Assembly (NCBI GenBank): GCA_004366385.1
Contig: ML178782.1
Span: forward strand, 155,734-192,258
From: Actinomycetota bacterium
GTDB lineage: Bacteria > Actinomycetota > Thermoleophilia > Gaiellales > Gaiellaceae
Direction of reading: 5' to 3'
DNA length: 36,525 nucleotides
Shown here: positions 3,064-18,704 of the stretch, piece by piece
Numbering within the stretch: position 1 is the stretch's first letter
Layout of the letters: each line of letters starts with the position of its first letter
Notes under the pieces: model-generated
Databases searched by the model: none
What the model was told of the DNA's origin: nothing
The model's input: the letters and a program-made list of their open reading frames with translations, nothing else
Position numbers and translations under genes: made by a program

Positions 3064-3085
3064 GTTCACCGGAAAGCAACCCCGC
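3064..3085 (+). promoter_or_regulatory. candidate PHO box upstream of ppk (weak)
   Basis: Two adjacent 11-base units, GTTCACCGGAA and AGCAACCCCGC. The first matches the actinobacterial PHO-box unit (GTTCACC core) exactly; the second keeps only the AACC part. The units read toward ppk and end 23 bases before its GTG. It is weaker than the other sites in this window, so regulation of ppk by PhoB is only suggested. Confidence 0.4.
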
Positions 3086-3108: not shown

Positions 3109-5220
3109 GTGCCCTTGGCGACACGAGTCCGCAGCGAGCCGTCGGAGCGCTTCCTCAACCGGGAGCTCTCGCTCCTCGACTTCCACTCGCGCGTGCTCGA
3201 GCTCGCCGGCGACGAGGCGGTGCCGCTCCTCGAGCGGGTCCGGTTCTGCGCGATCTTCGCCTCCAACCTCGACGAGTTCTTCCAGGTACGCGTCGCCGGG
3301 CTGCTCGGGCAGGCCGAGTCCGGGCTCTCGATGCGCTCGGCGGACGGGCTCACCCCGCAGCAGGCGCTCGCGAGGATCCGCGAGCGCGTCCTCGAGCTGA
3401 TCGCCCGCCAGGCGCGGACGTGGAAGCGCGATCTCAGGCCCGCGCTCGCCGCCGAGGGGATCGTCGTCGGCGGGAACGGGGGCTGCGCCGTCGAGGACTG
3501 CGACGACGGGGAGCTCGCCGGTCTCGAGCGCCACTACCAGCAGGAGATCTATCCGATCCTGACCCCGCTCGCGGTCGGCCCCGGCCAGCCGTTCCCGTAC
3601 ATCTCGGGCCTGTCGCTCTCGCTCGCCGTCTTCGTGGCCGACCCGCAGACGGGCGAGGAGCGCTTCGCGCGGGTCAAGATCCCGGAGGGCCTGCCGCGCT
3701 TCCTCGAGATCGGCGGACGCGGCCTCTTCCTCCCGCTCGAGCAGGTGATCTCGCACTTCCTCCCCTCGCTCTTCCCCGGCGCGACGATCGTGGAGCGGGC
3801 CGCGTTCCGCGTCACGCGTGACGCCGACTTCGAGGTCTCGGACGACGCGGCCGACCTGCTCGAGGCGGTCGAGACGCAGCTTCGCAAGCGCCGCTTCGGC
3901 GACGTCGTGCGCGTCGAGGTGAGCTCGTCGGCGTCCGCGGAGATGGTGGAGCGCCTCACGCGCGGGCTCGGCGCGGACGAGTCGCAGGTCTACCGCAGCG
4001 AGAGCCCCCTCGACCTCGCCGATCTGACCGAGCTCGCGCAGCTCGAGCGGCCGGACCTGAAGGACGAGCCGTGGGTCCCGGTCGTGCCGCCGCGGCTCGC
4101 GGTGGCGCAGAGCGACCTCCCACGCATCTTCGACGAGATCCGCCGCGGCGACGTCGCCGTCCACCAGCCGTACGAGTCGTTCCGCGCAAGCTTCGAGGTG
4201 TTCGCGCAGGCCGCGGTCCAGGACCCCGACGTGATCGCGATGAAGACGTCGGTGTACCGGACGAGCGACGACAGCGCGCTCGTGGGCTCGCTCATCCAGT
4301 GCGCGGAGGACGGGAAGCAGTCCGTGTGCCTGGTCGAGCTGAAGGCGCGCTTCGACGAGCGCCGCAACATCGAGTGGTCGCGCGCGCTGGAGCAGGCGGG
4401 AGTGCACGTCCTCTACGGGTTCCCGGACCTGAAGATCCACGCGAAGATGACGCTGATCGTGCGCCGCGAGGGGGGCGTGCTCCGCCGCTACGCGCACATC
4501 GGCACCGGGAACTACCACGCGGCGACGGCGCGGCTGTACGAGGACGTCGGCATCTTCACGGCCGACGAGGACATCGCGGCGGACGTGGCCGACCTCTTCA
4601 ACTTCATCACCGGCTTCGGGCGGCCGCGCCGGTTCCGAAAGCTCCTCGTCGCCCCGTTCACGCTCCGCAGCGGCCTCGTCGACGAGATCCGCGCGGTCGC
4701 CGCGGCCGCGGCCGCCGGAGAGCCCGCGCGCATCCGGCTCAAGGTGAACCACCTGGTCGACCCGGGGATCGTGGACGAGCTGTACGCAGCGTCGCAGGCG
4801 GGCGCCGAGATCGACGTCATCGCGCGCACGACGTGCACGCTGCGGCCCGGCGTCGAGGGTCTCTCGGAGACCATCCGCGTCCGCTCGCTCGTCGGGCGCT
4901 TCCTCGAGCACAGCCGGATCTACGAGTTCGAGGCGGGTGAGCGGGCGACGACGTACCTCGGCAGCCCCGACCTCATGCCGCGCAACCTCGACCACCGCAT
5001 CGAGGTCCTCGTCCCGGTCGAGAGCGGGCGGATCCGGCAGGAGGTGCACACGATCCTCGACAGCGCGCTCGCGGACGACGTGAACGCGTGGCTCCTCGGC
5101 CCGGACGGCGCGTGGACGCGCGCGACGCCCGGCGAGCGGCCCCACTCCCACCACGCGACGATGATGCGCCGGGCCGGAGCCCGCGCCCGCCGCCGCGCCC
5201 GCGCGCGGCGGGTGGAGTAG
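3109..5220 (+). CDS. ppk1: polyphosphate kinase 1
   Basis: This is a 703-residue PPK1, the usual family length. It polymerises the gamma-phosphate of ATP into polyphosphate, reversibly, through a phosphohistidine intermediate. The N-terminal domain opens with RFLNRELSLLDF (about residue 14) and NLDEFFQVRVAG (about residue 54). The two C-terminal phospholipase-D-like domains carry the catalytic histidines: His444 in DLKIHAKM, the expected autophosphorylated residue, and His601 in EHSRIYEF. The AHIGTGNYH motif follows the first. The chosen start is GTG at 3109; TTG at 3115 is an alternative. The C-terminus ends in an arginine-rich tail after the conserved core. ppx follows after 31 bases on the same strand, so synthesis and hydrolysis of polyphosphate appear co-transcribed. 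Confidence 0.96.
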   Translation: MPLATRVRSEPSERFLNRELSLLDFHSRVLELAGDEAVPLLERVRFCAIFASNLDEFFQVRVAGLLGQAESGLSMRSADGLTPQQALARIRERVLELIARQARTWKRDLRPALAAEGIVVGGNGGCAVEDCDDGELAGLERHYQQEIYPILTPLAVGPGQPFPYISGLSLSLAVFVADPQTGEERFARVKIPEGLPRFLEIGGRGLFLPLEQVISHFLPSLFPGATIVERAAFRVTRDADFEVSDDAADLLEAVETQLRKRRFGDVVRVEVSSSASAEMVERLTRGLGADESQVYRSESPLDLADLTELAQLERPDLKDEPWVPVVPPRLAVAQSDLPRIFDEIRRGDVAVHQPYESFRASFEVFAQAAVQDPDVIAMKTSVYRTSDDSALVGSLIQCAEDGKQSVCLVELKARFDERRNIEWSRALEQAGVHVLYGFPDLKIHAKMTLIVRREGGVLRRYAHIGTGNYHAATARLYEDVGIFTADEDIAADVADLFNFITGFGRPRRFRKLLVAPFTLRSGLVDEIRAVAAAAAAGEPARIRLKVNHLVDPGIVDELYAASQAGAEIDVIARTTCTLRPGVEGLSETIRVRSLVGRFLEHSRIYEFEAGERATTYLGSPDLMPRNLDHRIEVLVPVESGRIRQEVHTILDSALADDVNAWLLGPDGAWTRATPGERPHSHHATMMRRAGARARRRARARRVE

Positions 5221-5251
5221 GGCGGCCGACGGACCGGGGAGAATCAGCTCC

Positions 5252-6136
5252 GTGATCGTCGGGATCCTCGACGTCGGCTCGAACACGGTCCGTCTGCTCG
5301 TGGCGTCCGTCCACGACGGCTCGGTCGAGCAGCTCACCCGCGACCGCCACTACCTCCGTCTCGGCGACGACGTGCATGCCGCCGGGCGGATCGGTGCGAG
5401 GAAGCTCGAGGAGGCGGGCGAGGTCGCGCGCGAGCTCGCGCGCGCGGCCCGCAAGGGCGGCGCCGAGCGCGTGCAGACGATCGTCACCGCGCCGGGCCGC
5501 CAGGCGGCGAACGGGGACGACCTCCGACGCGTGCTCGAGAAGCGGACGAAGGCCGCCGTCGTCCAGCTCACCGGCGAGGACGAGGGCCGCCTCGCCTGGG
5601 AGGGCGCGGTCGCGCGCATGGCCGACCCGCCGCGCCGCGTCGGCGTGGTCGACCTCGGCGGCGGCTCGTTCGAGCTCGCCGTCGGCCGCCCGGGACGCGG
5701 CCCGGCGTGGGTGCGCTCGGTCGACGGCGGAGCGCTGCGCATCACGCGCGAGCTGCTCGGCGGCGACCCGCCGTCGCGGAAGAAGGTCGCGCGGGCGCGA
5801 GAGCGGATCAGAGAGCTCGTCGAGCCCCTCGACCCCCCGGGACCCGACGTCGTCGCAGTGGTCGGCGGCACCTCGCGCGCGATCGGCCGCGTCGTCGGCC
5901 GCAGGTACGGCGCGGCCGAGCTCGACGAGCTCGTCGACCGGCTCACGCGCAAGCGGGCGGAGAAGGTCACGGCGCCGCACGGCATCACGCCCGAGCGGGC
6001 GCACACGCTGCTCGGCGGGACGCTCGTCCTCGCGGAGATCGCGCGCACGCTAAACCGCGAGCTCGAGGTCGGTCGCGGCGGCCTGCGCGAGGGGGCCGCG
6101 CTCGCGCTCGCGCGGGACGAGGCCGCCGCCGCGTAG
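5252..6136 (+). CDS. ppx: Ppx/GppA family exopolyphosphatase
   Basis: This is a 294-residue member of the actin-like ASKHA fold that removes terminal phosphate from polyphosphate or hydrolyses pppGpp. The phosphate-binding loops are visible: ILDVGSNTVRLLV at the N-terminus, VVDLGGGSFELAVG near residue 134, and VVGGTSRAIGRV near residue 207. It has the short two-domain form typical of actinobacterial PPX and lacks the C-terminal HD domain of E. coli Ppx. The GTG at 5252 gives the first conserved strand at residue 2 and follows a purine-rich GGGGA. It sits 31 bases after ppk1, in the same operon. Whether polyphosphate or pppGpp is preferred cannot be read from the sequence; linkage to ppk1 favours polyphosphate. 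Confidence 0.92.
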   Translation: MIVGILDVGSNTVRLLVASVHDGSVEQLTRDRHYLRLGDDVHAAGRIGARKLEEAGEVARELARAARKGGAERVQTIVTAPGRQAANGDDLRRVLEKRTKAAVVQLTGEDEGRLAWEGAVARMADPPRRVGVVDLGGGSFELAVGRPGRGPAWVRSVDGGALRITRELLGGDPPSRKKVARARERIRELVEPLDPPGPDVVAVVGGTSRAIGRVVGRRYGAAELDELVDRLTRKRAEKVTAPHGITPERAHTLLGGTLVLAEIARTLNRELEVGRGGLREGAALALARDEAAAA

Positions 6137-6138
6137 CC

Positions 6139-6171
6139 GTTCACCACCCCGTCACCGTCCCGACACGACTC
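6139..6171 (+). promoter_or_regulatory. PHO box upstream of arsC-aquaporin
   Basis: Direct repeats with an 11-base period: GTTCACCACCC, CGTCACCGTCC and a degenerate third unit CGACACGACTC. The TCACC cores begin at 6141 and 6152, exactly 11 apart. This matches the Streptomyces-type PHO box bound by PhoP. It reads toward the arsenate reductase gene, with the second unit ending 40 bases before its GTG. It lies just after the ppx stop codon. Confidence 0.75.
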
Positions 6172-6200
6172 GGACGCCTTGCAGCTGCGAGGATCCCGTC

Positions 6201-6827
6201 GTGCCCACGCTCGACCCGGTCACGCAGCACCACGTCCAGCAGGTCACCGAGGGGCTCGTGGACGAGTTCGCGGGGATCTTCTCCCGGGAGACGATCGAGC
6301 GCTACATCGCGGAGTCCATCGACCTGCTCGGCGAGTCGAAGATCAACGTCTTCGTGCCCGTCCTCGCGCACCGCTTCGCCCGCGAGCGGCTGAAGGCGCT
6401 CGGGCAAGCCGACGGCGCCATCACGAAGGAGCAGCCCGAGGTGCTCTTCGTCTGCGTCCAGAACGCGGGTCGTAGCCAGATGGCCGCCGGTCTCGTGCGG
6501 CTCCGCTCCGAGGGCCGCGTCCACGTCCGCTCGGCGGGCAGCGCGCCGGCGGAGAAGCTGAACCCCGCCGTCGTGAAGGCGCTGGAGGAGGTCGGCGTCG
6601 ACGTGAGCGAGGAGTTCCCGAAGCCGCTCACCGACGAGGTCGTGCGCGCAGCGGACGTCGTGATCACGATGGGCTGCGGCGACGCGTGCCCGATCTACCC
6701 CGGCAAGCGCTACGAGGACTGGGAGCTCGACGACCCGGCGGAGCAGGACCTCGACACGGTGCGGCGGATCCGGGACGAGATCGACGAGCGCGTGCAGCGG
6801 CTCGTCGACGACCTCATCGGGGATTGA
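6201..6827 (+). CDS. arsC: arsenate reductase (low-molecular-weight phosphatase fold) with N-terminal helical domain
   Basis: This 208-residue protein has two parts. Residues 1 to about 72 form a helical segment resembling the three-helix N-terminal dimerisation domain that precedes many actinobacterial ArsC proteins. Residues 79-208 are a low-molecular-weight phosphotyrosine-phosphatase fold: VLFVCVQNAGRSQMAAG gives the P-loop nucleophile Cys85 and Arg91, MGCGDACP gives Cys159 and Cys163, and GKRYEDWELDDP gives the general-acid Asp. This set marks arsenate reductase rather than a protein phosphatase. The enzyme would convert arsenate to arsenite with a thiol partner (thioredoxin or mycothiol; not decidable here). 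The start is GTG 6201 with GAGGA eight bases upstream. Its stop overlaps the aquaporin start (TTGA), and a PHO box precedes it. Confidence 0.87.
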   Translation: MPTLDPVTQHHVQQVTEGLVDEFAGIFSRETIERYIAESIDLLGESKINVFVPVLAHRFARERLKALGQADGAITKEQPEVLFVCVQNAGRSQMAAGLVRLRSEGRVHVRSAGSAPAEKLNPAVVKALEEVGVDVSEEFPKPLTDEVVRAADVVITMGCGDACPIYPGKRYEDWELDDPAEQDLDTVRRIRDEIDERVQRLVDDLIGD

Positions 6828-7510
6828 CCGAGCCGCGCCGCGAGGCGGCCCGGCTCGCAGCCGAGCTCGTCGGCACGTTCGCGCTCGTCTTCGTCGGCTG
6901 CGGGGCGATCATGGTCGACGCGGAGACGGGTGCGCTCGGACACCTCGGCGTCTCGCTGGCGTTCGGGCTCGTGATCGCAGTGATGGTCTCGGCCGTCGGG
7001 CCGATCTCGGGCGCCCACTTCAACCCCGCGGTGACGCTCGCGCTCTGGGCGGTTCGCGAGGTACCGGGCCGGCGCGTGCCCGCGTACTGGCTCGCGCAGG
7101 TCTCGGGTGGGTTGGCCGCGGCGGCGCTGCTGCGCGCCTCGCTCGGGGGCGTCGCGAGCCTCGGCACGACGCAGCCTGCGGAGTCGGCAGGCCAGGCGTT
7201 CGTGTGGGAGGTCGTGCTCACCTCCTTCCTCCTGCTCGTGATCGTGGGCGTTGCGACCGGACGCCGCCCGGCGGCGCCCGTGGCCGCCGGCGCGGCGATC
7301 GGAGGGACGATCGCGATGGCGTCGCTCGTCGGCGGGCCGGTCTCGGGCGCCTCGCTCAACCCGGCACGCTCGCTCGCCCCAGCCCTCGTCTCCTGGGAGC
7401 TCGGCTCGCTCTGGATCTACCTCACGGCGCCGCTCCTCGGCGGCGTGCTCGGCGCCGTCGCGCTGGTGGCGATGCACCGCGCAACGCCTGTCGCGGACGC
7501 CGAGAGCTAG
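6824..7510 (+). CDS. MIP-family aquaporin, probable arsenite/metalloid channel
   Basis: This is a 228-residue six-helix major intrinsic protein. Both pore motifs are intact: HFNPAVTLA and SLNPARSLAP. By hand alignment with E. coli AqpZ, the aromatic/arginine filter reads Phe (in SLAFG), Ser (in AMASLVG), Ala (in SGASLNPAR) and Arg. The histidine of strict water channels is replaced by Ser and the Thr by Ala, so the pore should be wider and could pass small neutral solutes such as arsenous acid or glycerol. The start is TTG 6824, overlapping the arsC stop by four bases, so the two should be translationally coupled. AqpS of Sinorhizobium and actinobacterial MIP-ArsC fusions give precedent for arsenite efflux. 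The substrate remains inference. The end overlaps the convergent phosphatase gene by four bases. Confidence 0.88.
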   Translation: MTEPRREAARLAAELVGTFALVFVGCGAIMVDAETGALGHLGVSLAFGLVIAVMVSAVGPISGAHFNPAVTLALWAVREVPGRRVPAYWLAQVSGGLAAAALLRASLGGVASLGTTQPAESAGQAFVWEVVLTSFLLLVIVGVATGRRPAAPVAAGAAIGGTIAMASLVGGPVSGASLNPARSLAPALVSWELGSLWIYLTAPLLGGVLGAVALVAMHRATPVADAES

Positions 7511-7968
7511 CTTCGTGCGCCGGCGCGCTCGGTGACGCTGACCGCGACCGAGGGAGGCGGCAGGTACGCGACCGCCTCGAGCGCGCCGTCGCGGCGCTCG
7601 ACGAGCCAGGTCCCGCCCTTCTCGCACGTCACCTTGCCGTCGAAGAGGTGCTCGAAGACCTCGCGGTGCGTGCAGACGAGCGCGGCTTCGGGAAGCTCGG
7701 CGAGCAGCGCGCGGGTCTCCTCGGCCGACGCGCCGGGCAGGAGCTCGTCGCGCGTCTCGACCCGGAGGTTCCGGCTCCGCGCGAGCGCCTCGACCGTCTC
7801 GACGCAGCGCGCGTGGGGGCTCGAGACGACGCGCTCGAGCGCGTGCCCGGCGAGCGCCTCGGGCAGCTCGCGCGCGTCCGCGCGCCCGCCGCGGTCGAGC
7901 CGGCGCGCACGGTCGAGCGTGGCCGACGGCCGTCGCTCACCCGCGCTTGCGTGTCTCAGCAGCAGCAC
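7507..7968 (-). CDS. SixA/MutT1-C-like histidine phosphatase
   Basis: This is a 153-residue member of the histidine phosphatase (phosphoglycerate-mutase-like) superfamily. The RHA motif, LLLRHASAGER at the N-terminus, carries the phospho-accepting histidine. SSPHARCVETVEAL supplies the second phosphate-pocket arginine, and VCTHREVFEHL near residue 98 supplies the second histidine. The short length and motif style match E. coli SixA and the C-terminal half of mycobacterial MutT1. The start is GTG 7968 because a strong GGGAGG ribosome site (7975-7980) sits six bases before it; the frame is open further upstream only by overlapping the NUDIX gene. It follows the NUDIX gene by 62 bases on the same strand. 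The substrate may be a nucleoside phosphate made by that enzyme or a phosphohistidine protein. Confidence 0.85.
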   Translation of the reverse strand: MLLLRHASAGERRPSATLDRARRLDRGGRADARELPEALAGHALERVVSSPHARCVETVEALARSRNLRVETRDELLPGASAEETRALLAELPEAALVCTHREVFEHLFDGKVTCEKGGTWLVERRDGALEAVAYLPPPSVAVSVTERAGARS

Positions 7969-9869: not shown

Positions 9870-10865
9870 TCAGGTTCGCTTCGCCTGGGCGAGCTGGAGG
9901 TGGAAGCTCGTCCGGGCACGCTTCAGCTGCTTCTTGGTCAGCGGGATGAAGTCCGCGCGCTTCGCGATCCTCACCTCGTTGTCGAACATGAAGTCGATGA
10001 ACGCCTGCACGTGCCGCTTCTTGAACGACGTGCCCTTCACGTAGATGAAGAGCGGCCGTGAGAGCGGCCTGTACGTCTCGTTGTGCACCGACTTGATGCC
10101 CGGCGTGACGCACTGGTTCGTCTTCGGGTTGCGGACCTGGATCGCGGTCAGCCGGCTCTTGTTCTCCTCGTAGTACGAGTAGCCGAAGTAGGCCATCCCG
10201 CCCCGCTCGCCGAGGACGCCCTGGACGAGCACGTTGTCGTCCTCGGATGCCTGGAAGTCGGTGCGGCTCGCCCGCGAGCGTCCGTTGATCGCCTCGGTGA
10301 AGTAGTCGAACGTCCCCGAGTCCGTGCCCGGGCCGAACAGCTTGAGTGGCACGTCCGGGAAGCCGGGGCGGACGTCCTTCCAGTTGTTCACGGTCGAGCC
10401 GGGCTCCCAGATCTTCTTCAGCTCCGCGACCGAGAGGCACCGCGCCCACGTGTTCTGCGAGTTCACGACAACCGTGAGCGCATCGTTCGCGACCGTCCAC
10501 GCCCGCCAGCTGCCGACCCTGTTGTCCTTGCACAGCTGCGCCTCGGAGAGGCGCATCGGACGCGAGGCGTCCTGGATGTCGGTCTCCCCCTTGCAGAAGC
10601 GCTGGAAGCCGCCGCCGGTGCCGGAGATGCCCACCGTGACCTTGACCTTGCTCGCGCCGGCGCGCCGGAACAGCTCGGCGGTCGCCGTCGTGTACGGGCC
10701 GACCGTCGACGAGCCGTCGGCCGTGATCGTCCCGGAGAGCTTCTTGAGGTTGTACGTCGGGTTCCGGACCGACGCCGAGCCTGCCGCCAGCGACGCGAGC
10801 ACCAGGCTCGCTCCGACCCCCAGTGCCACCACGATGACGCCGCGGCGGCCGAGTGAGAGCTTCAT
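9870..10865 (-). CDS. pstS: phosphate-binding protein PstS (copy 1, non-lipidated)
   Basis: This is a 331-residue periplasmic-type binding protein. It has an N-terminal signal sequence (basic KLSLGRRG, then a hydrophobic stretch to about residue 30, with likely cleavage near SAS), but no lipobox cysteine, unlike the other two copies. Ligand-site blocks are DGSSTVGP, GISGTGGGFQRFC and GPGTDSGTFDYF, the arrangement of SphX-like PstS proteins. SRPLFIYV near the C-terminus is shared with the two paralogues. The mature protein is rich in Lys/Arg. ATG 10865 has AGAGGAG about ten bases upstream. It lies downstream of phoU but is separated from it by a hairpin and has its own PHO box, so it is probably transcribed separately. 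It may be a secreted or cell-wall-held phosphate scavenger. Confidence 0.9.
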   Translation of the reverse strand: MKLSLGRRGVIVVALGVGASLVLASLAAGSASVRNPTYNLKKLSGTITADGSSTVGPYTTATAELFRRAGASKVKVTVGISGTGGGFQRFCKGETDIQDASRPMRLSEAQLCKDNRVGSWRAWTVANDALTVVVNSQNTWARCLSVAELKKIWEPGSTVNNWKDVRPGFPDVPLKLFGPGTDSGTFDYFTEAINGRSRASRTDFQASEDDNVLVQGVLGERGGMAYFGYSYYEENKSRLTAIQVRNPKTNQCVTPGIKSVHNETYRPLSRPLFIYVKGTSFKKRHVQAFIDFMFDNEVRIAKRADFIPLTKKQLKRARTSFHLQLAQAKRT

Positions 10866-10939: not shown

Positions 10940-10972
10940 ATCGAGTGAAGCTGTGGTGGCGGAGTGGTGACG
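10940..10972 (-). promoter_or_regulatory. PHO box upstream of pstS1
   Basis: On the minus strand there are three 11-base units whose cores read TCACC (10966-10970), CCACC (10955-10959) and TCACT (10944-10948), spaced exactly 11 bases apart and reading toward pstS1. The last unit ends about 74 bases before the ATG, leaving room for a promoter. The core is less perfect than the sites before phoB and pstS2. Confidence 0.6.
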
Positions 10973-11132: not shown

Positions 11133-11813
11133 TCAGACCAACGGCCGCGGGTCGTGCGAGGCGTCCGTGAACTCGGCGAACTCGCCGGTCACGATGAAGG
11201 CGGTCTGCTCGCCGATGTCGACGGCGTTGTCGCCGATCCGCTCGAAGCAGCGCGCGACGGTGATCTGCCGCATCCCCCACTCGAGCGCCTCGGCGTCGTG
11301 CACGTACCCGAGCACCTCGTGGAAGACCTGCCGGTTCGCGTTGTCGACGAGCTCGTCGAGCTGGTGCAGCCCGCGGGCGGCCTGCACGTCTCGCGCGGCG
11401 AACGCCGACAGCGAGACCTTGACCATCTCGGCGCAGCGCTCGCCCATGTCGACGAGGCTCTCGACGACGGTGCGCTTCGTGTCGAGATGGCTCGAGAGCT
11501 TCGTCAGCTTCGCGATCGTGACGCACTGGTCGCCGACGCGCTCGAGGTGCAGCGCCGAGTGGAGGATGGCGAGCACGAGACGGAGATCGCTGGCCACCGG
11601 CGTCTGCCGCGCGAGCGTCATCTCCACCTGCTTCTCGAGCGCGAGGTAGCGGGCGTCGATCTCGTCGTCGAACGCGATCACCTCGTCGCAGAGCTCGACG
11701 TCCTGCGTCCGCAGCGCGTCGATCACGCCGCGGATCGAGCGGAGCACGATCTCGCCGGCCTCCTGGAAGCCCGCCTCGAGCGCGTCCAGCTCGGCCTGGA
11801 GCTCGACTCTCAT
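11133..11813 (-). CDS. phoU: phosphate signalling regulator PhoU
   Basis: This is a 226-residue all-helical protein made of two PhoU repeats. The metal-site-type helices are visible as [18 protein letters not shown] in the first repeat and [17 protein letters not shown] in the second. PhoU bridges the Pst transporter and the PhoR kinase, silencing the Pho response and limiting uptake when phosphate is ample. Its ATG at 11813 overlaps the pstB stop (ATGA), so stoichiometric production with the ATPase is expected. It is the last gene of the pst operon and is followed by a hairpin. The start is firm because the upstream part of the frame merely shadows pstB. Confidence 0.95.
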
Positions 11814-12676
11814 CCGAACCGTCCCGTGACGTAGTCCTCCGTCCGCTTGTCGGACGGGGTCGTGAAGATCTTGGTGGTCGCGTCGTACTCGACGAGGACT
11901 CCGCGCCGCGCGGCGCCCTCCTCGTCCACGAGGACGCTGAAGAACGCCGTCATGTCGGCCACACGCGCGGCCTGCTGCATGTTGTGGGTCACGATCACGA
12001 TCGTGTAGTCGCGCTTGAGGTCGTGCATGAGATCCTCGATGCGGGTCGTCGAGATCGGGTCGAGCGCCGACGCCGGCTCGTCCATGAGGATCACGTCCGG
12101 CTCGACGGCGAGCGCGCGGGCGATGCAGAGCCGCTGCTGCTGGCCGCCGGAGAGGCCGAGCGCGTTGTCCTTGAGCCGGCTCTTGACCTCGTCCCACAGC
12201 GCCGCCTGGCGGAGCGCCTGCTCGACACGGTCATCCATCGAGCCCTTTATCCCGAGCACGCGCGGCCCGAACGCGATGTTGTCGTAGATCGACTTCGGGA
12301 ACGGGTTCGGCTTCTGGAAGACCATGCCGATGCGGCGGCGGATCTCGACGGGATCCACGTCGCGGGCGTAGAGATCGTCGCCGTGGTAGAGGACCCGACC
12401 CTCGACCTCGGCGCCGGGGATGAGGTCGTTCATCCGGTTGAAGCAGCGGATGAACGTGCTCTTGCCGCAGCCCGACGGGCCGATGAACGCGGTGATGGTG
12501 TTGCGATGGACGTCGAGAGAGACGTCCTGAAGGGCGACCTTCCCGCTGTACGAGACCGCGAGGTCCGTGACCGAGAACACCTTCTCGCGGCCCTCGATCT
12601 CGCTGCGGTCGAGCCCACGCGTGATCTCGGCGATCCGGGAGCTGTCGATGTGCGGTTGCGTCTCCATCTGCGTCAT
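11810..12676 (-). CDS. pstB: phosphate ABC transporter ATP-binding protein PstB
   Basis: This is a 288-residue ABC ATPase that powers phosphate import by PstSCAB. Walker A is GPSGCGKST, the Q-loop is [19 protein letters not shown] (a PstB hallmark), the signature is [15 protein letters not shown], Walker B is [13 protein letters not shown], and the switch histidine is in [14 protein letters not shown]. An N-terminal extension of about 40 residues precedes the conserved [10 protein letters not shown] strand. Two starts are possible: ATG 12676, used here, or GTG 12682, which would overlap the pstA stop by four bases in the GTGA pattern seen at other junctions in this operon. It is coupled to phoU by an ATGA overlap. 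Confidence 0.96.
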
Positions 12677-12678
12677 GT

Positions 12679-13551
12679 TCACCACTTCTTGCGATAGCGG
12701 TTGCGAAGGAAGATTGCCACGGCGTTCATGCTGAGGACGATCACGAGCAGGACGATCGCCGCGGCGGCGGCCAGCGTCTGGAACTCGAGGTTCGGCTGCT
12801 TCGTCCAGTTGAAGATCTGCACCGGCAGCGCCGTGTAGGGGCCGAACAGCTCGGGGTTGAAGGCCACGTACGTGATCGCGCCGACCATGATCAGCGGCGC
12901 GGTCTCGCCGACGGCGCGGGAGAGGGCCAGGATCGACCCGGTCGCGATCCCGGGGATCGCAGCCGGGAGCACCTGGCGCCACACCACCTGCCAGCGCGTC
13001 GCCCCGAGCGCGAAGGCGCCTTGGCGGATGGAGTCCGGCACCGAGCGGATCGCCTCCCGCGACGCGACGACGACGGTCGGGAGCACCACGAGCGTGAGGA
13101 TCAGCGCCCCCGCGAACACCACGCGGCCGATGCCGATCCCGCGCACGATGAATGCGAGCCCGAGGATCCCGTACACGATCGAGGGGACGGCCGCGAGGTT
13201 CTGGATGTTGACCTCGATCATGCGGTTCCACCAACGCGACCGGTTCGCGTACTCCTCGAGGTAGATGGCCGTCAGCACGCCGATCGGCACCGAGAGGAGC
13301 AGCACGAGGAAGCCCAGGTAGAGCGTCGCCAGGATCGCGGGCCTCGCGCCCGCCTCCGCCGGCACGGTGGACGGAGGCTCGCTGAAGAGCTTCCAGTCGA
13401 GCGCCGGCCACCCGGTCAGGATCGTGTCGACGAGCAGGACGACGAGCGTCCCGAACGCGACGAACATCGAGAAGAGCATCGCGACCATGAAGACACGGTT
13501 CTTCCAGACACGGTCGCGGCGCGGGGGCTGCGCGTGCGCGAGGCTCGTCAC
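12679..13551 (-). CDS. pstA: phosphate ABC transporter permease PstA
   Basis: This is a 290-residue inner-membrane permease with about six transmembrane segments: one near residues 20-43, and five in the MetI-type core from about residue 72 onward. The EAA loop that contacts the ATPase is visible as [24 protein letters not shown], followed by [15 protein letters not shown], a PstA-typical block. It forms the translocation channel with PstC. Its ATG overlaps the pstC stop (ATGA), and pstB follows with at most two bases between. Length and motifs are normal for the family. Confidence 0.95.
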
Positions 13552-14483
13552 TCGTACACCTCGCGGTACTTCCGCACGAGCCGGATCGAAACGAGGTTCA
13601 TGACCAAGGTCATGCAGAAGAGCGTGAGCCCGACCGCGAAGATCGTCTTGTACTCGATCGAGCCGGTCGGGACGTCACCGTTGCCGGTCGCGCCGATGAA
13701 CGCGGTCATCGTCGCGATCGTCTCGCGCGGGTCGAACGTGATCTGCGCGAGCTGGCCCGCCGCGATGAGAACGATCATCGTCTCGCCGACCGCGCGGGAG
13801 AAGCCGAGCACGAACGCGGCGATGATCCCGGAGATCGCCGCGGGGACGACGATCTTCGTGGAGACCTGGAGCTTGTCGGCACCGAGTGCGTAGCCGCCGT
13901 CGCGGAGGTCGCGCGGGACCGCGGCCATCGCGTCCTCCGAGAGCGAAGCGATGGTCGGGATGAGCATGACCCCGAGCACGAGGCTCGCCGAGAGCGCGTT
14001 GAAGATCTCGACGTCGAGCCCGATGTCGCGCAGGAACGGCGTCACGAACGTGAGCGCGAAGTAGCCGAGGACGACGGTCGGGATCGCGGCGAGGATCTCG
14101 AGCACGGGCTTGAGCACGCTCGAGACGCGGGCGGGCGCGTACTCGCTGAGGTAGATCGCGACGCCGAGACCGAGCGGGAAGGCGACGAGCGACGACCAGA
14201 ACGAGATCATGAAGGTGCCGACGACGAGCGGGATGACGCCGAACTCGGCGTCGAGAAAGAGCGGCGCCCACGTCGTGCCGGTGAAGAACTCGACCGGGCT
14301 GACCACCCGGAAGAAGTCGATCGCCGGGAGGACGAGCGAGACGACGATGCCCACGGTGGTGAGCACGGAGATCGCAGCCGCCAGGAAGAGGACCGCCTGG
14401 ACGAGCACCTCGCCCGCGCGAATCCGCTTGCGCGGGAGCGCCAGCGGCGCCGGCTGCTCGAACGCGACCGCGCGCTCGGTCAC
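13548..14483 (-). CDS. pstC: phosphate ABC transporter permease PstC
   Basis: This is a 311-residue permease with six predicted transmembrane helices, the first at about residues 28-52. The loop after helix 1 ([11 protein letters not shown]...[10 protein letters not shown]) is characteristic of PstC. The ATPase-contact loop is [24 protein letters not shown], followed by [17 protein letters not shown]. The GTG at 14483 overlaps the pstS2 stop by four bases (GTGA). The frame continues upstream only as a shadow of pstS2. It pairs with PstA to form the channel through which phosphate, and by mimicry arsenate, enters the cell. Confidence 0.94.
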
Positions 14484-15388
14484 TGCGCGGCGGCTTCCTC
14501 GAGCTTCGAGAGGCCCTCGTCGACCTGAGCCCGGCTCAGAGGCACGAACTGCGCCTTCTGCGCGATCGACTCGTTGTTCTCGAACATGAAGCGGACGAAG
14601 TCGCGCACGTCGTCGTCCTCGAGAGAGCTCGTCTTCACGTACACGAAGAGCGGCCGCGAGAGCGGCGTGTAGGTGTCGTTCTGGGCCGACTCGACGCTCG
14701 GCGCGACACAGCCGCTCCCGCCGTCGACCTCGAGCGCCTTCAGGGTCGCCTGGTTCTCCTCGAAGTAGGAGAAGCCGAAGTAGCCGAGACCCCCGCGCTC
14801 GCCCGCGACACCCTGCACGATGACGTTGTCGTCCTCGCTCGGCGCGAAGTCGGTGCGACTGGCGCCCTCCTCGCCGTTGATCGCCCCGGTGAAGTAGTCG
14901 AACGTGCCCGAGTCGGTGCCGGGCCCGAAGAGGCGGAGCCGGACGTCGGGGAAGGACGGGTCGACCTCCTTCCACGACTTGATCTTCGAGCCGGGCCTCC
15001 AGATCCGGTTCAGCTGGGCGACCGTGAGGCAGTCGACCCAGTCGTTCTCCTTGTTGACCACGTTGGTGAGCGCGTCCGTGACCACGCGGAACTCGACGTA
15101 CTCGACACCGGCCTCGGCGCATGCCGCCGCCTCGTCGTCGGCGATCTGGCGCGATGCGTTCGAAAGGTCGGTCTCGCCGGCGCAGAAGCGGTCGAACCCG
15201 CCGCCGGTGCCCGAGATGCCGACGGTGACGTCCATCCCGCCTGCCGCCTTGAACTCCTGGGCTGCTCTGGTCACGAACGGGCCGACGGTGCTGGAGCCGT
15301 CGGCGACGATCACCGGAGTTCCGCCACCGCAGCCCGCAGCAGCGAGCGCGAGCGCGGCGAGAGGCGCCGCGAGAAGTCGCGTGTGCAT
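14480..15388 (-). CDS. pstS: phosphate-binding lipoprotein PstS (copy 2)
   Basis: This is a 302-residue binding protein, first gene of the pstS2-pstC-pstA-pstB-phoU operon. The N-terminus is a lipoprotein signal: hydrophobic LLAAPLAALALAAAGC, with the lipobox cysteine at about residue 20, so it should be anchored to the outer face of the membrane. Ligand-site blocks are DGSSTVGPF, GISGTGGGFDRFC and GPGTDSGTFDYFTGAI, almost the same as in copy 1, whereas the linker regions differ. Direct coupling to pstC by a GTGA overlap makes it the most likely main partner of the transporter. The ATG at 15388 is preceded by a three-unit PHO box 40 bases upstream. Confidence 0.95.
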   Translation of the reverse strand: MHTRLLAAPLAALALAAAGCGGGTPVIVADGSSTVGPFVTRAAQEFKAAGGMDVTVGISGTGGGFDRFCAGETDLSNASRQIADDEAAACAEAGVEYVEFRVVTDALTNVVNKENDWVDCLTVAQLNRIWRPGSKIKSWKEVDPSFPDVRLRLFGPGTDSGTFDYFTGAINGEEGASRTDFAPSEDDNVIVQGVAGERGGLGYFGFSYFEENQATLKALEVDGGSGCVAPSVESAQNDTYTPLSRPLFVYVKTSSLEDDDVRDFVRFMFENNESIAQKAQFVPLSRAQVDEGLSKLEEAAAQ

Positions 15389-15428: not shown

Positions 15429-15461
15429 GGCTGGTGAACATGTGGTGAGTTTCCGGTGAAG
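15429..15461 (-). promoter_or_regulatory. PHO box upstream of the pstS2-pstCAB-phoU operon
   Basis: On the minus strand there are three consecutive 11-base units, CTTCACCGGAA, ACTCACCACAT and GTTCACCAGCC. The TCACC cores are at 15455-15459, 15444-15448 and 15433-15437, exactly 11 bases apart. They read toward pstS2 and end 40 bases before its ATG. This is one of the clearest PHO boxes in the window and shows that the operon has its own promoter downstream of pstS3. Confidence 0.82.
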
Positions 15462-15476
15462 AACGCGCCCGGCGGC

Positions 15477-16409
15477 TCAACCCGGCGCAGGACCGAGCTT
15501 CGCGAGCTGCTCCTGAAGCTGCTCGTCGCTCAGCGGCACGAAGAGGGCGTGCTCGGCGATCGCCCTCTGGTTGCGGAGCAGGTAGCGGACGAACTGCCGC
15601 ACCTCGGGACGCTCGGCGAGCGCGCGCTGCTGGACGTAGACGAAGAGCGGCCGCGAGAGCGGCGTGTACGTGCCGTCCTGAACGGTCTCGACGGAGGGCG
15701 GGACGCACCCCCGGCCGCCGTCGATCTCGAGCGCGTTCAGCCGCGACTGGTTCGCCTGGTAGTACGAGAACCCGAAGTACCCGAGCGCGCCCTTGTGGTC
15801 GGCGACACCCTGGACGGTGTCGTTGTCGTCGTCGGTCGCGGCGTAGTCCGAGCGGCTGGCGCCCCGCTCGCCGTTGACCACGAAGGTGAAGTAGCGAAAC
15901 GTGCCGGAGCCTTCGCCTGCCCCGTAGAGCCGGAGCGGGACGTTCGGGAACGAGGGGTCGACGTCGTTCCAGTTGTCCACCTCCGAGTCGGGCTCCCAGA
16001 TCCGCCGGAGCTGGTCGACGGTCAGGCACGTGACCCAGTCGAAGAGGATCGGCTTGTGGATGGCGACGGTGATCGCGTCGTTGGCGATCTGAAGCTCGAC
16101 GTACTCGACCGCCGCCTCGGCGCAGTCGGCGGCCTCGTCCTCGTCGATCGGCCGCGACGCGTTCGCGATCTCGATCTCGCCTGCGCAGAAGCGGTCGAAG
16201 CCCTGGCGCGTCGTCGAGAGCTCGACGTCGACGTCGACCTCGGGACGGCTGGCCATGAACTCGACCGCGGCGCGATCCGCGAACGGGCCGACGGTGCTGG
16301 AGCCGTCGACGGAGATCGTGGCGCCCTTCGGGTCACCACCGGTTCCGCAACCCGCTCCCGCGGCAGCCACGAGCGCCGCCAGCGCGATTCCGAGCGCCGT
16401 GATCCTCAC
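15477..16409 (-). CDS. PstS-like phosphate-binding lipoprotein (copy 3, divergent)
   Basis: This is a 310-residue paralogue of the two neighbouring PstS proteins. A lipoprotein signal (RITALGIALAALVAAAGAGC) gives a lipobox cysteine at about residue 21. DGSSTVGPF is retained, but the second block is ELSTTRQGFDRFC instead of GISGTGGGF..., and the third is GAGEGSGTFRYF instead of GPGTDSGTFDYF. Residues contacting the ligand are therefore altered, and affinity or specificity may differ. The mature protein is notably acidic. GTG 16409 was chosen because it directly precedes the signal sequence; the frame extends upstream only through the kinase gene. It starts 41 bases after the phoR stop, so it may be co-transcribed with the kinase rather than with pstCAB. 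A sensor-linked or alternative-oxyanion role is possible. Confidence 0.85.
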   Translation of the reverse strand: MRITALGIALAALVAAAGAGCGTGGDPKGATISVDGSSTVGPFADRAAVEFMASRPEVDVDVELSTTRQGFDRFCAGEIEIANASRPIDEDEAADCAEAAVEYVELQIANDAITVAIHKPILFDWVTCLTVDQLRRIWEPDSEVDNWNDVDPSFPNVPLRLYGAGEGSGTFRYFTFVVNGERGASRSDYAATDDDNDTVQGVADHKGALGYFGFSYYQANQSRLNALEIDGGRGCVPPSVETVQDGTYTPLSRPLFVYVQQRALAERPEVRQFVRYLLRNQRAIAEHALFVPLSDEQLQEQLAKLGPAPG

Positions 16410-16450
16410 GTTCCCGCCACCAGATCGCAAAGTGTGCCGCGTGCGGCCGT

Positions 16451-17371
16451 CTAGGGGAAGGAGCAGCGGATCTCGAGGCCACGCCCGCGCCCGCCGTGCG
16501 CCTCGACGGTACCGCCCGCCTGAGTGACGACGTGCTTCACGATCGCGAGACCGAGGCCGGTCCCGCGCGAGGCGCGCGCCGCATCCGAGCGGTAGAAGCG
16601 CTCGAACAGCCGCGGGAGCTCGGCCTCGTCGACGCCGGCTCCGTCGTCGCGCCCCACGAGCGTGACCCGCCCGTCGGCGTCGGTCTCGACGGCGAGTGTG
16701 AACGTCGTGTCGGGTCCCGCGTACCGGATCGCGTTCTCGGCCAGGTTGCGCGCGACGACGCGCAGCATCCGCGGGCGAACGGCGACCTCGACCGCCCGGT
16801 CGCACTCGACCCGGAGCTCGACGCTCGCGCGCGCGGCACGCTCGGCGAGCTCGTCGAGCGCCTCGTCGAGCACCGGCGCGACGGGAGTCGGGCCGAGGGA
16901 GACGACCCGCGCGCCCGACTCGAGCTCGCTGAGGAAGAGCACCTCGTCGATGAGCTCCGTGATCTGCTCGACCTCGCGGGTCGCTTGATCGACGAGCTCG
17001 CGGGTGTCCTCGCCCGGCAGCGTCGCGGTCTCGAGCAGGGTGAGGAGCCGCGCGAGCGGTGTCCTGAGCTCGTGCGAGACGGCCGCCGTGAACCCCGACC
17101 GGAGCTCCTCGTACGCGGCGGTGTCGCCCTCCCGCGAGAGGTAGACGAGACGCTCTCGGCGCCCGTCCAGCTCATAGGGGACGACGAAGGGGATGACGCC
17201 TGCGGCACCGGTCAGGAGCTCCGGAGGCAGCGGCTCCCCCTCCCGGATCCCCTCGATCGTCTGCCGAGCGCGGCGGCTCGCCATGAGCACGCGGTCCGCC
17301 TCGTCGAGGACGACGACGGCCTCGCGGCTCTCCTCGACGAGCGTGCGGCCCCGAGTCGCCTCCGCGTCCAT
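16451..17371 (-). CDS. phoR: PhoR-like sensor histidine kinase without transmembrane segments
   Basis: This 306-residue histidine kinase starts with a PAS-like region (residues about 10-85, EAVVVLDEADRVLMAS). A HisKA dimerisation domain follows with the phospho-acceptor His100 in FTAAVSHELRTPLARLL, then the HATPase domain: N-box NLAENAIRYAG (about 209-219), G1 DDGAGVD (242-248) and G2 RGTGLGLAIVKH (269-280). No stretch is long and hydrophobic enough to span the membrane, so it appears cytoplasmic. That is unusual for PhoR, which normally has at least one membrane helix; sensing would then depend on PhoU/Pst contact or a cytosolic signal. It is divergent from phoB, with a PHO box between them, and directly upstream of pstS3. 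Confidence 0.9.
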   Translation of the reverse strand: MDAEATRGRTLVEESREAVVVLDEADRVLMASRRARQTIEGIREGEPLPPELLTGAAGVIPFVVPYELDGRRERLVYLSREGDTAAYEELRSGFTAAVSHELRTPLARLLTLLETATLPGEDTRELVDQATREVEQITELIDEVLFLSELESGARVVSLGPTPVAPVLDEALDELAERAARASVELRVECDRAVEVAVRPRMLRVVARNLAENAIRYAGPDTTFTLAVETDADGRVTLVGRDDGAGVDEAELPRLFERFYRSDAARASRGTGLGLAIVKHVVTQAGGTVEAHGGRGRGLEIRCSFP

Positions 17372-17422: not shown

Positions 17423-17455
17423 GTTCACCACCCGCTCACCAGCCCGTAACCACCC
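17423..17455 (+). promoter_or_regulatory. PHO box in the phoR-phoB intergenic region
   Basis: Three consecutive 11-base direct-repeat units: GTTCACCACCC, GCTCACCAGCC and CGTAACCACCC. The cores begin at 17425, 17436 and 17447, exactly 11 apart. They read toward phoB and end 45 bases before its ATG. The site lies between the divergent kinase and regulator genes and so may control both, giving autoregulation of the two-component system. It is the best match to the actinobacterial PHO-box consensus in the window. Confidence 0.85.
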
Positions 17456-17500: not shown

Positions 17501-18199
17501 ATGGCGAAGGTCCTGATCATCGAGGACGACGACGTCATCGCCCGCGGCATGGCTCGCCATCTCGAGTCCGCGGGCTTCGACGCCGTCGGCGTCGCCAACG
17601 GCGAGACCGGGCTGGCGCGCCTGCGCTACGAGCGGCCCGACGTCTGCGTGCTCGACCTCATGCTCCCCGGCATCGACGGCTGGCGCGTGATCGAGCAAGC
17701 GCGCTCGGAGGGCATCGGGACGCCGATCGTCGTCGTCTCCGCGCGCGGGACCGAGCACGACCGCGTGCACGCGCTCGAGATCGGGGCGGACGACTACCTC
17801 GTGAAGCCGTTCTCGCTGAAGGAGCTGACCGCGCGCGTGCGGGCGGCGGCGCGGCGCGGCGTGAGCGAGGCCGAGCCGAAGCGCGGCGAGGCGATCGAGA
17901 TCGAGGAGCTCACGCTCGACCCGGACAACGTGCAGGCGTACGTCGACGGCGTGAGCGCAGACCTGACGCCCACGGAGTTCCGCCTCGTGTACACGCTCGC
18001 CCGCGAGCAGGGTCGCGTCCTCACCCGCGACGAGCTGCTCCAGCGCGTCTGGGGGCGGCGGGCGACGCACCGGGATCGCACGGTCGACGTCTTCGTGCGC
18101 AAGCTCCGCGAGAAGATCGACCGAAAGGCGCCACGGCACACGTTCATCCACACGCGCTACGGCGTCGGCTACAAGCTCGAAGCGCTGCCGAAGAGCTGA
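17501..18199 (+). CDS. phoB: phosphate response regulator PhoB/PhoP (OmpR family)
   Basis: This 232-residue response regulator has a receiver domain (residues 1-120) with acidic pocket Glu8/Asp9, phospho-acceptor Asp52 in CVLDLMLPG, and conserved Lys in DDYLVKPF. The C-terminal winged-helix DNA-binding domain (about 130-230) contains LTPTEFRLVYTLA, RDELLQRVWG, RTVDVFVRKLREKI and a RYGVGYKL wing. ATG 17501 is chosen over the in-frame GTG at 17477 because it gives the standard MAKVLIIEDDD start. It is divergent from phoR. The five PHO-box candidates of this window are its expected targets, by homology with Streptomyces PhoP. A hairpin follows nine bases after the stop. Confidence 0.95.
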   Translation: MAKVLIIEDDDVIARGMARHLESAGFDAVGVANGETGLARLRYERPDVCVLDLMLPGIDGWRVIEQARSEGIGTPIVVVSARGTEHDRVHALEIGADDYLVKPFSLKELTARVRAAARRGVSEAEPKRGEAIEIEELTLDPDNVQAYVDGVSADLTPTEFRLVYTLAREQGRVLTRDELLQRVWGRRATHRDRTVDVFVRKLREKIDRKAPRHTFIHTRYGVGYKLEALPKS

Positions 18200-18249: not shown

Positions 18250-18276
18250 TAGCCTCGCTAATGATTAGCGAAGCTA
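18250..18276 (+). promoter_or_regulatory. palindromic operator overlapping the marR start codon
   Basis: A 27-base inverted repeat centred on 18263, arms 13 bases with 12 matching: TAGC-C-TCGCTAAT on the left and ATTAGCGA-A-GCTA on the right. The ATG of marR (18261) lies inside it. It is strikingly AT-rich for this genome. Its size and symmetry fit a MarR dimer site, so the regulator probably represses its own operon. Confidence 0.75.
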
Positions 18277-18704
18277 CGCATACGCCCGAGGCCGTCGCGG
18301 ACGAGTTGCGACCCGTGCTCCTGCGGCTCGCGCGCGAGCTGCGCAAGGAGACCGAGCAGGTCGGGATCACGGCCCGGCAGACGACGCTGCTGTGGCTCGT
18401 GAAGCGAAGCCCGGGGCTGTCGCTCGCGGAGCTCGCCGCCGAGGAGGGCATCTCCCCGCCCGCGCTCTCCGGGTCGGTCGACCGGCTGGAGCGAGCCGGC
18501 CTCCTCACTCGCGTCCGCTCGACCGAGGACCGGCGACGCGTGGGGCTGGAGCTGACCGAGGAGGGTACGAAGCTGCTGCGGCGGATCCGCGCGCGGCGCA
18601 CCATGTGGCTCACCGGGCGCCTCGCAGAGCTCGACGCCTCCGAGCTCGACGCGCTCGTCGTGGCAACACCGGCGCTGAGGAAGCTCCTGGGGGAGAGCGG
18701 TTGA
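18261..18704 (+). CDS. MarR-family transcriptional regulator
   Basis: This is a 147-residue winged-helix regulator. Helices before residue 40 form the dimer interface; the recognition part is ITARQTTLLWLVKRSPGLSLAELAAEEGISPPALSGSVDRLERAGLL, followed by the wing TEDRRRVGLELTEEG, all standard for MarR. MarR proteins usually repress a neighbouring exporter until a small-molecule ligand binds. Here the exporter follows with a TTGA stop/start overlap. The ATG lies inside a 27-base palindrome and has no ribosome-binding sequence upstream, so the message may be leaderless. A TTG at 18304 is a less likely alternative start. The ligand is unknown. Confidence 0.92.
   Translation: MISEATHTPEAVADELRPVLLRLARELRKETEQVGITARQTTLLWLVKRSPGLSLAELAAEEGISPPALSGSVDRLERAGLLTRVRSTEDRRRVGLELTEEGTKLLRRIRARRTMWLTGRLAELDASELDALVVATPALRKLLGESG

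Follow-up and report, generated by a model that had tools for sequence, protein, structure and literature searches.

The arsC-aqp gene pair of an uncultured Actinomycetota bacterium of the Gaiellaceae (genome G000) probably belongs to the Pho regulon, as judged from its sequence and that of its relatives: ArsC would reduce arsenate that leaks into the cell, the aquaporin would release the resulting arsenite, and the pair appears to have passed from ArsR to Pho control in a move made repeatedly in this family. The evidence comes from a PHO box before arsC, the recurrence of such boxes in other genera, the lack of a local ArsR and the position of the gene in the arsC tree.

arsC lies in an island of phosphate genes

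The window, by which we mean the whole 36,525-nucleotide stretch of DNA that was analysed, is a Pho gene island in which ppk-ppx-arsC-aqp lies beside pstSCAB-phoU and phoRB. The plus strand carries, in this order, ppk for polyphosphate kinase 1 (3109-5220; TIGR03705, 750 bits), ppx for an exopolyphosphatase of the Ppx-GppA family (5252-6136, the stop codon ending at 6136; PF02541), arsC (6201-6827, GTG start) and aqp (6824-7510, TTG start). Downstream of aqp, a minus-strand block encodes a histidine phosphatase, a NUDIX protein, a CYTH-CHAD protein, a second PstS-family binding protein (9870-10865; TIGR02136), PhoU (11133-11849, within an open reading frame of 11133-12197; TIGR02135), PstB (11813-12700; TIGR00972), PstA (12679-13551; TIGR00974), PstC (13551-14498; TIGR02138), PstS (14480-15388; TIGR02136), a third PstS-family protein between pstS and phoR (15477-16805; TIGR02136), each of these PstS, Pst and PhoU matches being above the cut-off of its model, and a PhoR-like sensor kinase (16451-17371). 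Beyond this block the plus strand resumes with a phoB-like response regulator gene of the OmpR family (17501-18199). A cognate phoR/phoB pair is therefore present in the genome by best family match and synteny, at scores below the curated cut-offs (TIGR02966, the best match of the kinase, 167.5 against 334.2 bits; TIGR02154, the best NCBIfam match of the regulator, 194 against 296.2 bits). A gene for a MarR-family regulator lies directly 3' of phoB (18261-18704, plus strand).

The first four genes share one strand and are closely spaced, with 31 bp between ppk and ppx and 64 bp between ppx and arsC, and a scan of 5200-7600 found no terminator-like element. The arsC stop codon TGA (6825-6827) overlaps the aqp start codon TTG at 6824 in a TTGA, which bears out the coupling proposed in the preliminary description. 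A sigma-70 promoter scan gave no match before arsC. Read by eye, a possible -10 element GAGGAT (6189-6194, plus strand) stands 6 nt before the GTG and may be that of a leaderless arsC mRNA. We also observed a near-perfect 14-bp dyad, CTTGCAGCTGCGAG (6178-6191), which overlaps this putative -10 element and could be either a second operator or a product of chance.

An actinobacterial PHO box precedes arsC

Sequence reading, pattern search and matrix scoring all located a PHO box of three direct 11-bp units in the ppx-arsC gap (6139-6171, plus strand), oriented toward arsC. The units are GTTCACCACCC (6139-6149; strong), CGTCACCGTCC (6150-6160; strong) and CGACACGACTC (6161-6171; weak), all in 11-bp register. 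TCACC cores begin at 6141 and 6152, 11 bp apart; these are the two units already recognised in the preliminary description, to which the weaker in-phase third is now added. A direct PhoB/PhoP target should have at least two direct 11-nt units of the regulator's motif upstream, and arsC has three. The first unit is identical in the arsC and phoB boxes.

The actinobacterial PHO motif is of the GTTCACC type with an 11-nt unit, according to the accessible part of PMC4415409, and the arsC motif is of this type and not of the E. coli type. The E. coli PHO consensus gave a single match in the window, with 3 mismatches (5.3 expected by chance) and elsewhere than at arsC, which marks it as the wrong motif for this bacterial group. 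With a Streptomyces-type consensus, the arsC site was the second-best 11-bp pair in the window, behind phoB. The pattern TTCACC-N6-TCACC has 5 exact matches in the 2.73-Mb genome and none in the reversed control, and 3 of the 5 precede arsC, pstS and phoB. The remaining two (C19:30102, or L194:1501, and C43:7399, or L198:1501) are found away from the Pho island. The first separates a histidine kinase gene from a small open frame, and the second falls between two genes of the opposite strand; they are possibly further Pho targets, or else due to chance.

We replaced the Streptomyces-type consensus with an 8-position unit matrix. It was built from 15 PHO sites of the window and related loci, all of them preceding phoB, pstS or the second pstS, with arsC sites excluded; the 200-bp stretch upstream of each gene was then scored and compared to 400 dinucleotide-shuffled versions. 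The arsC site reached 24.7 bits, a score attained in 0/400 shuffles. Among the other sites of the window, the boxes before phoB (17423-17455, plus strand; 32.0 bits) and pstS (15429-15461, minus strand; 32.3 bits) and the PHO-like repeat before the second pstS (10940-10972, minus strand; 24.9 bits) all belonged to the training set, and a weaker box precedes ppk (3064-3085, plus strand; 11.7 bits, 3/400 shuffles). Unlike these two pstS genes, the third PstS gene showed no PHO box in the 200 bp that precede its matched region (2.8 bits).

At a threshold of at least 18 bits the matrix recovered 9/14 phoB rows (8 of the 9 trained), 12/14 pstS rows (3 trained, 9 untrained), 7/7 second-pstS rows (4 of them trained) and 1/10 ppk rows, with 3 more ppk rows at 13.5-18, and it missed 5/14 phoB and 2/14 pstS rows, which score below 8. 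Since untrained pstS promoters were recognised, the matrix works beyond its training set. In G292, a score of 14.0 fell on an AT-rich ArsR-type operator; the threshold of 13.5 is therefore not clean, and we rely on the five arsC sites at or above 18 bits.

PHO boxes recur before arsC in other genera

arsC was found in 35 of 61 genomes (G000 and relatives), and in 34 of 103 Gaiellaceae genomes at a stricter cut-off. We scored 61 arsC stretches from 56 loci, the window included and 7 of the loci coming from other families of the order. Five stretches from four genera reached at least 18 bits: that of G000 and those of G022 (21.8), G126 (20.7), G006 (19.3) and G014 (18.3). Two are borderline, G086 at 14.8 bits (1/400 shuffles) and G091 at 13.5 (0/400); G009 follows at 10.2 bits (2/400), and all remaining arsC stretches score 4.3 or less. 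Compared to a background from which 320 bp before phoB, phoR, pstS, ppk and arsC had been left out, and in which 10 of 6218 windows score at least 18 bits and 21 at least 13.5 (including windows that precede pst or other pho genes), arsC stretches are enriched in boxes at both thresholds (Fisher p = 2e-7 at 18 bits and 6e-9 at 13.5, rows treated as independent). Read by eye, the G022 and G126 boxes have four units in register.

With 54/61 arsC stretches below 13.5 bits, a box kept in all relatives is ruled out. The search of related genomes proposed in the preliminary description had a mixed outcome: the box is found in G014, G022 and G126 and, among genomes of the same genus, in G006, whereas G001 of that genus lacks it (4.3 bits, 38/400 shuffles) and in G009 it is weak and stands beside a divergent arsR. 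In G002, G005 and G007 arsC lies behind ppk, and neither gene has a clear box (ppk 3.6, -3.9 and 1.8 bits), which rules out for these three genomes the idea that every arsC near pho genes is Pho-controlled. Because several relatives of the same genus have no box or a weak one, and the nearest arsC genes have none, it reads as a recurrent lineage-specific trait and not as a conserved element. The combination of a PHO box with an arsC-aqp pair was seen only in G000.

Linkage to phosphate genes takes other forms as well. In G027, arsC begins about 20 bp after phoB, whose promoter box scores 24.5 bits (trained), and in G012 and G095 it follows pstSCAB-phoU, with pstS boxes of 31.7 and 29.6 bits (untrained). 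The G035 arsC and the arsC that follows phoB in G126 are at most candidates for Pho control, their phoB promoters scoring low. In the arsC clade that includes the window's gene, 19/29 members have pho genes of two or more kinds within 6 kb, CHAD being counted as one kind, and arsR is also near in 4 of these 19. Efflux genes join the island too: in L040 (G002) and L035 (G006), both from genomes of the same genus, acr3 lies inside or beside it.

At 14 loci of the class that belong to other families (L202 having nearly no upstream sequence), we found no convincing PHO box; one of the 14 exceeds 13.5 bits and has the look of an ArsR-type operator, rich in AT and adjacent to a divergent arsR. The 7 loci from the order's other families likewise yielded no convincing PHO-boxed arsC. 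A set of named organisms comprised 80 loci with 169 arsC-like rows (L101 and L102 apparently duplicate the G009 and G108 contigs), of which 4 rows score above 13.5; arsR is near in 3 of these 4 highest-scoring rows, the exception being L104. There (L104:4185, Actinomycetota MGR_bin372), GTTCACCCGGCAGTCACC stands 47 bp upstream of an arsC that is divergent from ppk and near phoU-pstBA, and a scan found no arsR on the 8-kb contig, making this a further candidate for a Pho-wired arsC. At another locus, L133:9983 from Salinibacterium metalliresistens, arsC directly follows pstC-pstA-pstB with ppk nearby, a Pho-linked arsC outside Gaiellaceae, and no arsR was seen in 20 kb.

The arsC tree and possible repeated moves from ArsR to Pho control

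A scan with seven ArsR seeds found no ArsR-family gene in the window, as the preliminary description had stated; the six HTH_5 matches in G000 all lie outside it, the nearest about 25 kb upstream of arsC. The interval 6137-6200 contains no ArsR-type dyad and no TTGA or TCAA. Two marks of a classical ars operon, an arsR gene and its operator at arsC, are thus missing from the window.

Among 16 full-length arsC genes, 7 have a divergent arsR (L032, L033, L035, L036, L083, L084 and L085). Dyads or half-sites of the ATATTGA/TCGATATTGA type occur within 200 bp in 6/16 of these promoters. Each of the six belongs to an arsC gene with divergent arsR, giving 6/7 in this group compared to 0/7 among boxed arsC genes (Fisher p = 0.011, kinship ignored). 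We infer that ArsR binds these elements. An arsR lies close to a boxed arsC in G006, where it is divergent, and in the borderline G086, where it is just downstream. A separate arrangement was observed in L109, L130, L145, L151 and L168 (Microbacterium, Cryobacterium, Agromyces, Williamsia), whose arsR-arsC islands carry an extra pstSCAB with a shared motif of approximately TTCAnATAGA....CTTCTAT before pstS, perhaps an ArsR-type operator.

The tree has 33 weak branches among its 61 inner ones, and its bootstrap has not settled. In it, five arsC genes that have aqp and arsR near and carry no box come closest to that of the window. As the nearest relatives of the window's gene are arsR-linked arsC-aqp pairs, the arrangement in the window looks like an exchange of ArsR for Pho. 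The seven boxed arsC genes, a group that includes the two borderline cases and was fixed by score before the tree was made, do not form one clade: forcing them together costs 103 log-likelihood units (p-AU = 4e-5, a test run after the tree had been seen). The boxed state needs at least 4 changes on the tree, a count that by itself gives no direction. Because the nearest arsC genes are arsR-linked and no convincing box was found at the loci scored from other families, ArsR control would be ancestral and Pho control derived within Gaiellaceae. A broader statement, whose chances we put at about even, is that Gaiellaceae arsC genes left ArsR for the Pho regulon repeatedly, either through a box of their own or through relocation to a place behind pho genes, and came to be triggered by phosphate hunger in place of a local arsenic sensor, and that in G000 ArsC and a passive channel make up the whole arsenic defence.

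ArsC and the aquaporin could form a complete arsenate route

ArsC combines a three-helix N-terminal domain with an LMWP domain (PF01451), and its assignment as an LMWP-type arsenate reductase draws on Pfam and NCBIfam matches, a structural match and invariant residues. C85-x5-R91, C159, C163 and DP178-179 are invariant over 10 homologues and provide the CX5R P-loop, two further cysteines and DP of a three-cysteine LMWP-type reductase; CGDAC and DP motifs are typical of arsenate reductases. The best solved structure is 3t38, 'Arsenate Reductase' (E = 1.2e-59, both domains, residues 14-201), which we take to be the thioredoxin-coupled ArsC1' of Corynebacterium glutamicum, compared to E of about 3e-8 for the LMW-PTP YwlE. 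The protein stays below the curated cut-offs of TIGR02689 (glutaredoxin-type; 92.1 against 157.6 bits) and TIGR02691 (pI258-type; 79.4 against 174.3 bits).

Aqp is an aquaporin with a MIP domain (PF00230, 176 bits) and two NPA motifs. Its best solved structure is NIP2-1 (E = 2e-43), with AqpZ behind (E = 1e-31); NIP2-1 conducts silicic acid and arsenite. NIP-like arsenite channels are marked by a wide selectivity filter, but the filter of Aqp, read against the NIP2-1 and AqpZ positions, is F/S/A/R. The readable arsC-adjacent aquaporins of relatives have F/A/A/R or F/S/A/R filters, some with altered NPA motifs. A second MIP gene is present elsewhere in G000.

Of the dedicated arsenite pumps that mark classical ars operons, Acr3 and ArsB, no Acr3 was found in the G000 genome, which is 97% complete. 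One ArsB-like protein is above the Pfam cut-off (39.2 against 22.2 bits), is encoded on another contig unlinked to arsC, fits MamN/DASS models better and falls far below the NCBIfam ArsB cut-offs (72.9 against 415 and 88.9 against 457 bits); although above the Pfam cut-off, it was set aside as a probable relative of ion transporters. With no Acr3 found and the ArsB-like protein fitting other transporters and lying on another contig, the aquaporin is a candidate exit and may be the way by which arsenite leaves the cell.

Proposed mechanism and alternative explanations

Under scarce phosphate, PhoR would phosphorylate the PhoB-type regulator, which would bind the 11-bp repeats at 6139-6171 and raise arsC-aqp together with pst, phoB and ppk-ppx. 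The arsenate enzyme would then appear along with Pst, the transporter that admits arsenate; ArsC, probably with thioredoxin, would reduce arsenate leaking in by this route, and the aquaporin would let neutral arsenite diffuse outward. The pair was probably ArsR-controlled in an ancestor and later Pho-controlled, a switch that would have occurred more than once in Gaiellaceae. What stands of the Pho-controlled arsenate defence envisaged in the preliminary description is the operator's match to the island's own phoB and pstS boxes, the lack of a local ArsR or dyad, a plausible ArsC and channel, and recurrence in other genera; conservation of the box in close relatives is not supported.

Pho control could instead reach arsC-aqp mainly by read-through from the boxed ppk-ppx, with the repeats at 6139 adding little. 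The single strand, the short gaps, the terminator scan, the weaker box of ppk itself and the position of arsC directly behind ppk in G002, G005 and G007 all speak for this, but the arsC box is much stronger than that of ppk (24.7 compared to 11.7 bits) and arsC boxes recur where no ppk precedes (G014, G022 and G126), and we consider this reading improbable. Somewhat less probable still is a role apart from arsenic, in which the ArsC-like protein would serve phosphate metabolism as a phosphatase and the channel would pass just water or glycerol. The LMWP fold, the phosphate setting and scores below the curated reductase cut-offs would agree with a phosphatase, while the three invariant reductase cysteines with CGDAC and DP, the far better match to an arsenate reductase structure than to YwlE, and nearest relatives that adjoin arsR and aqp argue against it.

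The other two alternatives concern the operator. An ArsR-family protein encoded elsewhere could act on arsC in trans, as the six HTH_5 matches would allow; the nearest is 25 kb away, however, and arsC lacks the dyad, TTGA and TCAA, whereas dyads or half-sites are present in 6/7 relatives whose arsR is divergent, so that we regard control of this kind as very unlikely. That the repeat arose by chance in a GC-rich genome, in which two of the five exact matches are unexplained and outside the Pho island, has the least in its favour and is hardly credible given the result of 0/400 shuffles, the genomic rarity, the first unit shared with phoB and the recurrence in other genera. Together, these comparisons favour arsC-aqp as a member of the Pho regulon with its own operator. 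Such an operator would be a concrete element for feed-forward defence against a toxin, the cell reading the nutrient state that causes arsenate uptake and not arsenic: it seems to arm itself upon opening arsenate's entry route, with the usual arsenic sensor replaced by a phosphate switch. A small defence module could accordingly change its trigger over a short evolutionary distance and keep its enzymes. This could help explain arsC in habitats low in both phosphate and arsenic, where the gene need not signal arsenic contamination.

Comparison with known systems

The C. glutamicum ArsC1' system belongs to ars operons. The 3t38 protein has the same two-domain build as the window's ArsC (residues 14-201) and differs in the regulation of its system. 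Beyond the actinobacteria, SAR11 is an alphaproteobacterial group with a comparable gene pair. In Pelagibacter HTCC7211, the arsenic genes found amount to an LMWPc_ArsC gene and an aquaporin gene that follows it on one strand, as in the window, and arsC is reported to rise 2.3-fold under phosphate starvation and to be commoner where phosphate is low; the induction is mild, and the available text of that study does not contain 'PhoB' and presents neither a PHO box nor a comparison of promoters between relatives (PMC6426599). In Halomonas HAL1, PhoB binds a Pho box before aioBA and pst and ars genes share one island, so that a Pho box precedes an arsenic gene and phosphate and arsenic genes stand together as in the window, whereas the target is an arsenite oxidase and not an arsenate reductase, and is arsenite-induced (PMC4563254, accessible part). 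Arsenic and phosphate genes are adjacent and cross-regulated in the ars1 and pstS1-phoB1 region of Agrobacterium 5A (PMC7965956 and PMC3834237, in the portions available), where ArsR1 represses pstS1 and phoB1 (PMC7965956); arsenic there drives phosphate genes, and the window shows the reverse, a Pho operator before arsC. Crocosphaera arsB is induced by phosphate starvation (cited in PMC4284471), and cyanobacterial arsB/acr3 efflux is likewise tied to the low-phosphate response, although these are efflux pumps of another phylum for which the available excerpts give no PHO box (PMC4284471, PMC3686209).

The literature searched, largely without subscription journals and in part as excerpts, contained no PHO box before arsC. 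The excerpts of PMC8745256 mention arsC, PhoB and the Pho box unconnected, those of PMC1906773 and PMC11358556 gave no arsenic genes in a term search, and those of PMC6514093, PMC3610870, PMC6196244, PMC12607644 and PMC2848241 no PHO box at arsC. The earlier view that Pho control of such genes had not been described was nevertheless too strong, in light of the SAR11 arsC induction (PMC6426599), Crocosphaera arsB (PMC4284471) and PhoB binding at Halomonas aioBA (PMC4563254), as far as the available text of each goes. The link of arsenic genes to phosphate starvation is thus already known from these precedents and the idea is not wholly new; what is new is a PHO box on arsC(-aqp) in actinobacteria, the arrangement without an arsenic sensor at the locus, and the replacement of ArsR by Pho, apparently more than once, to which the comparison of relatives points.
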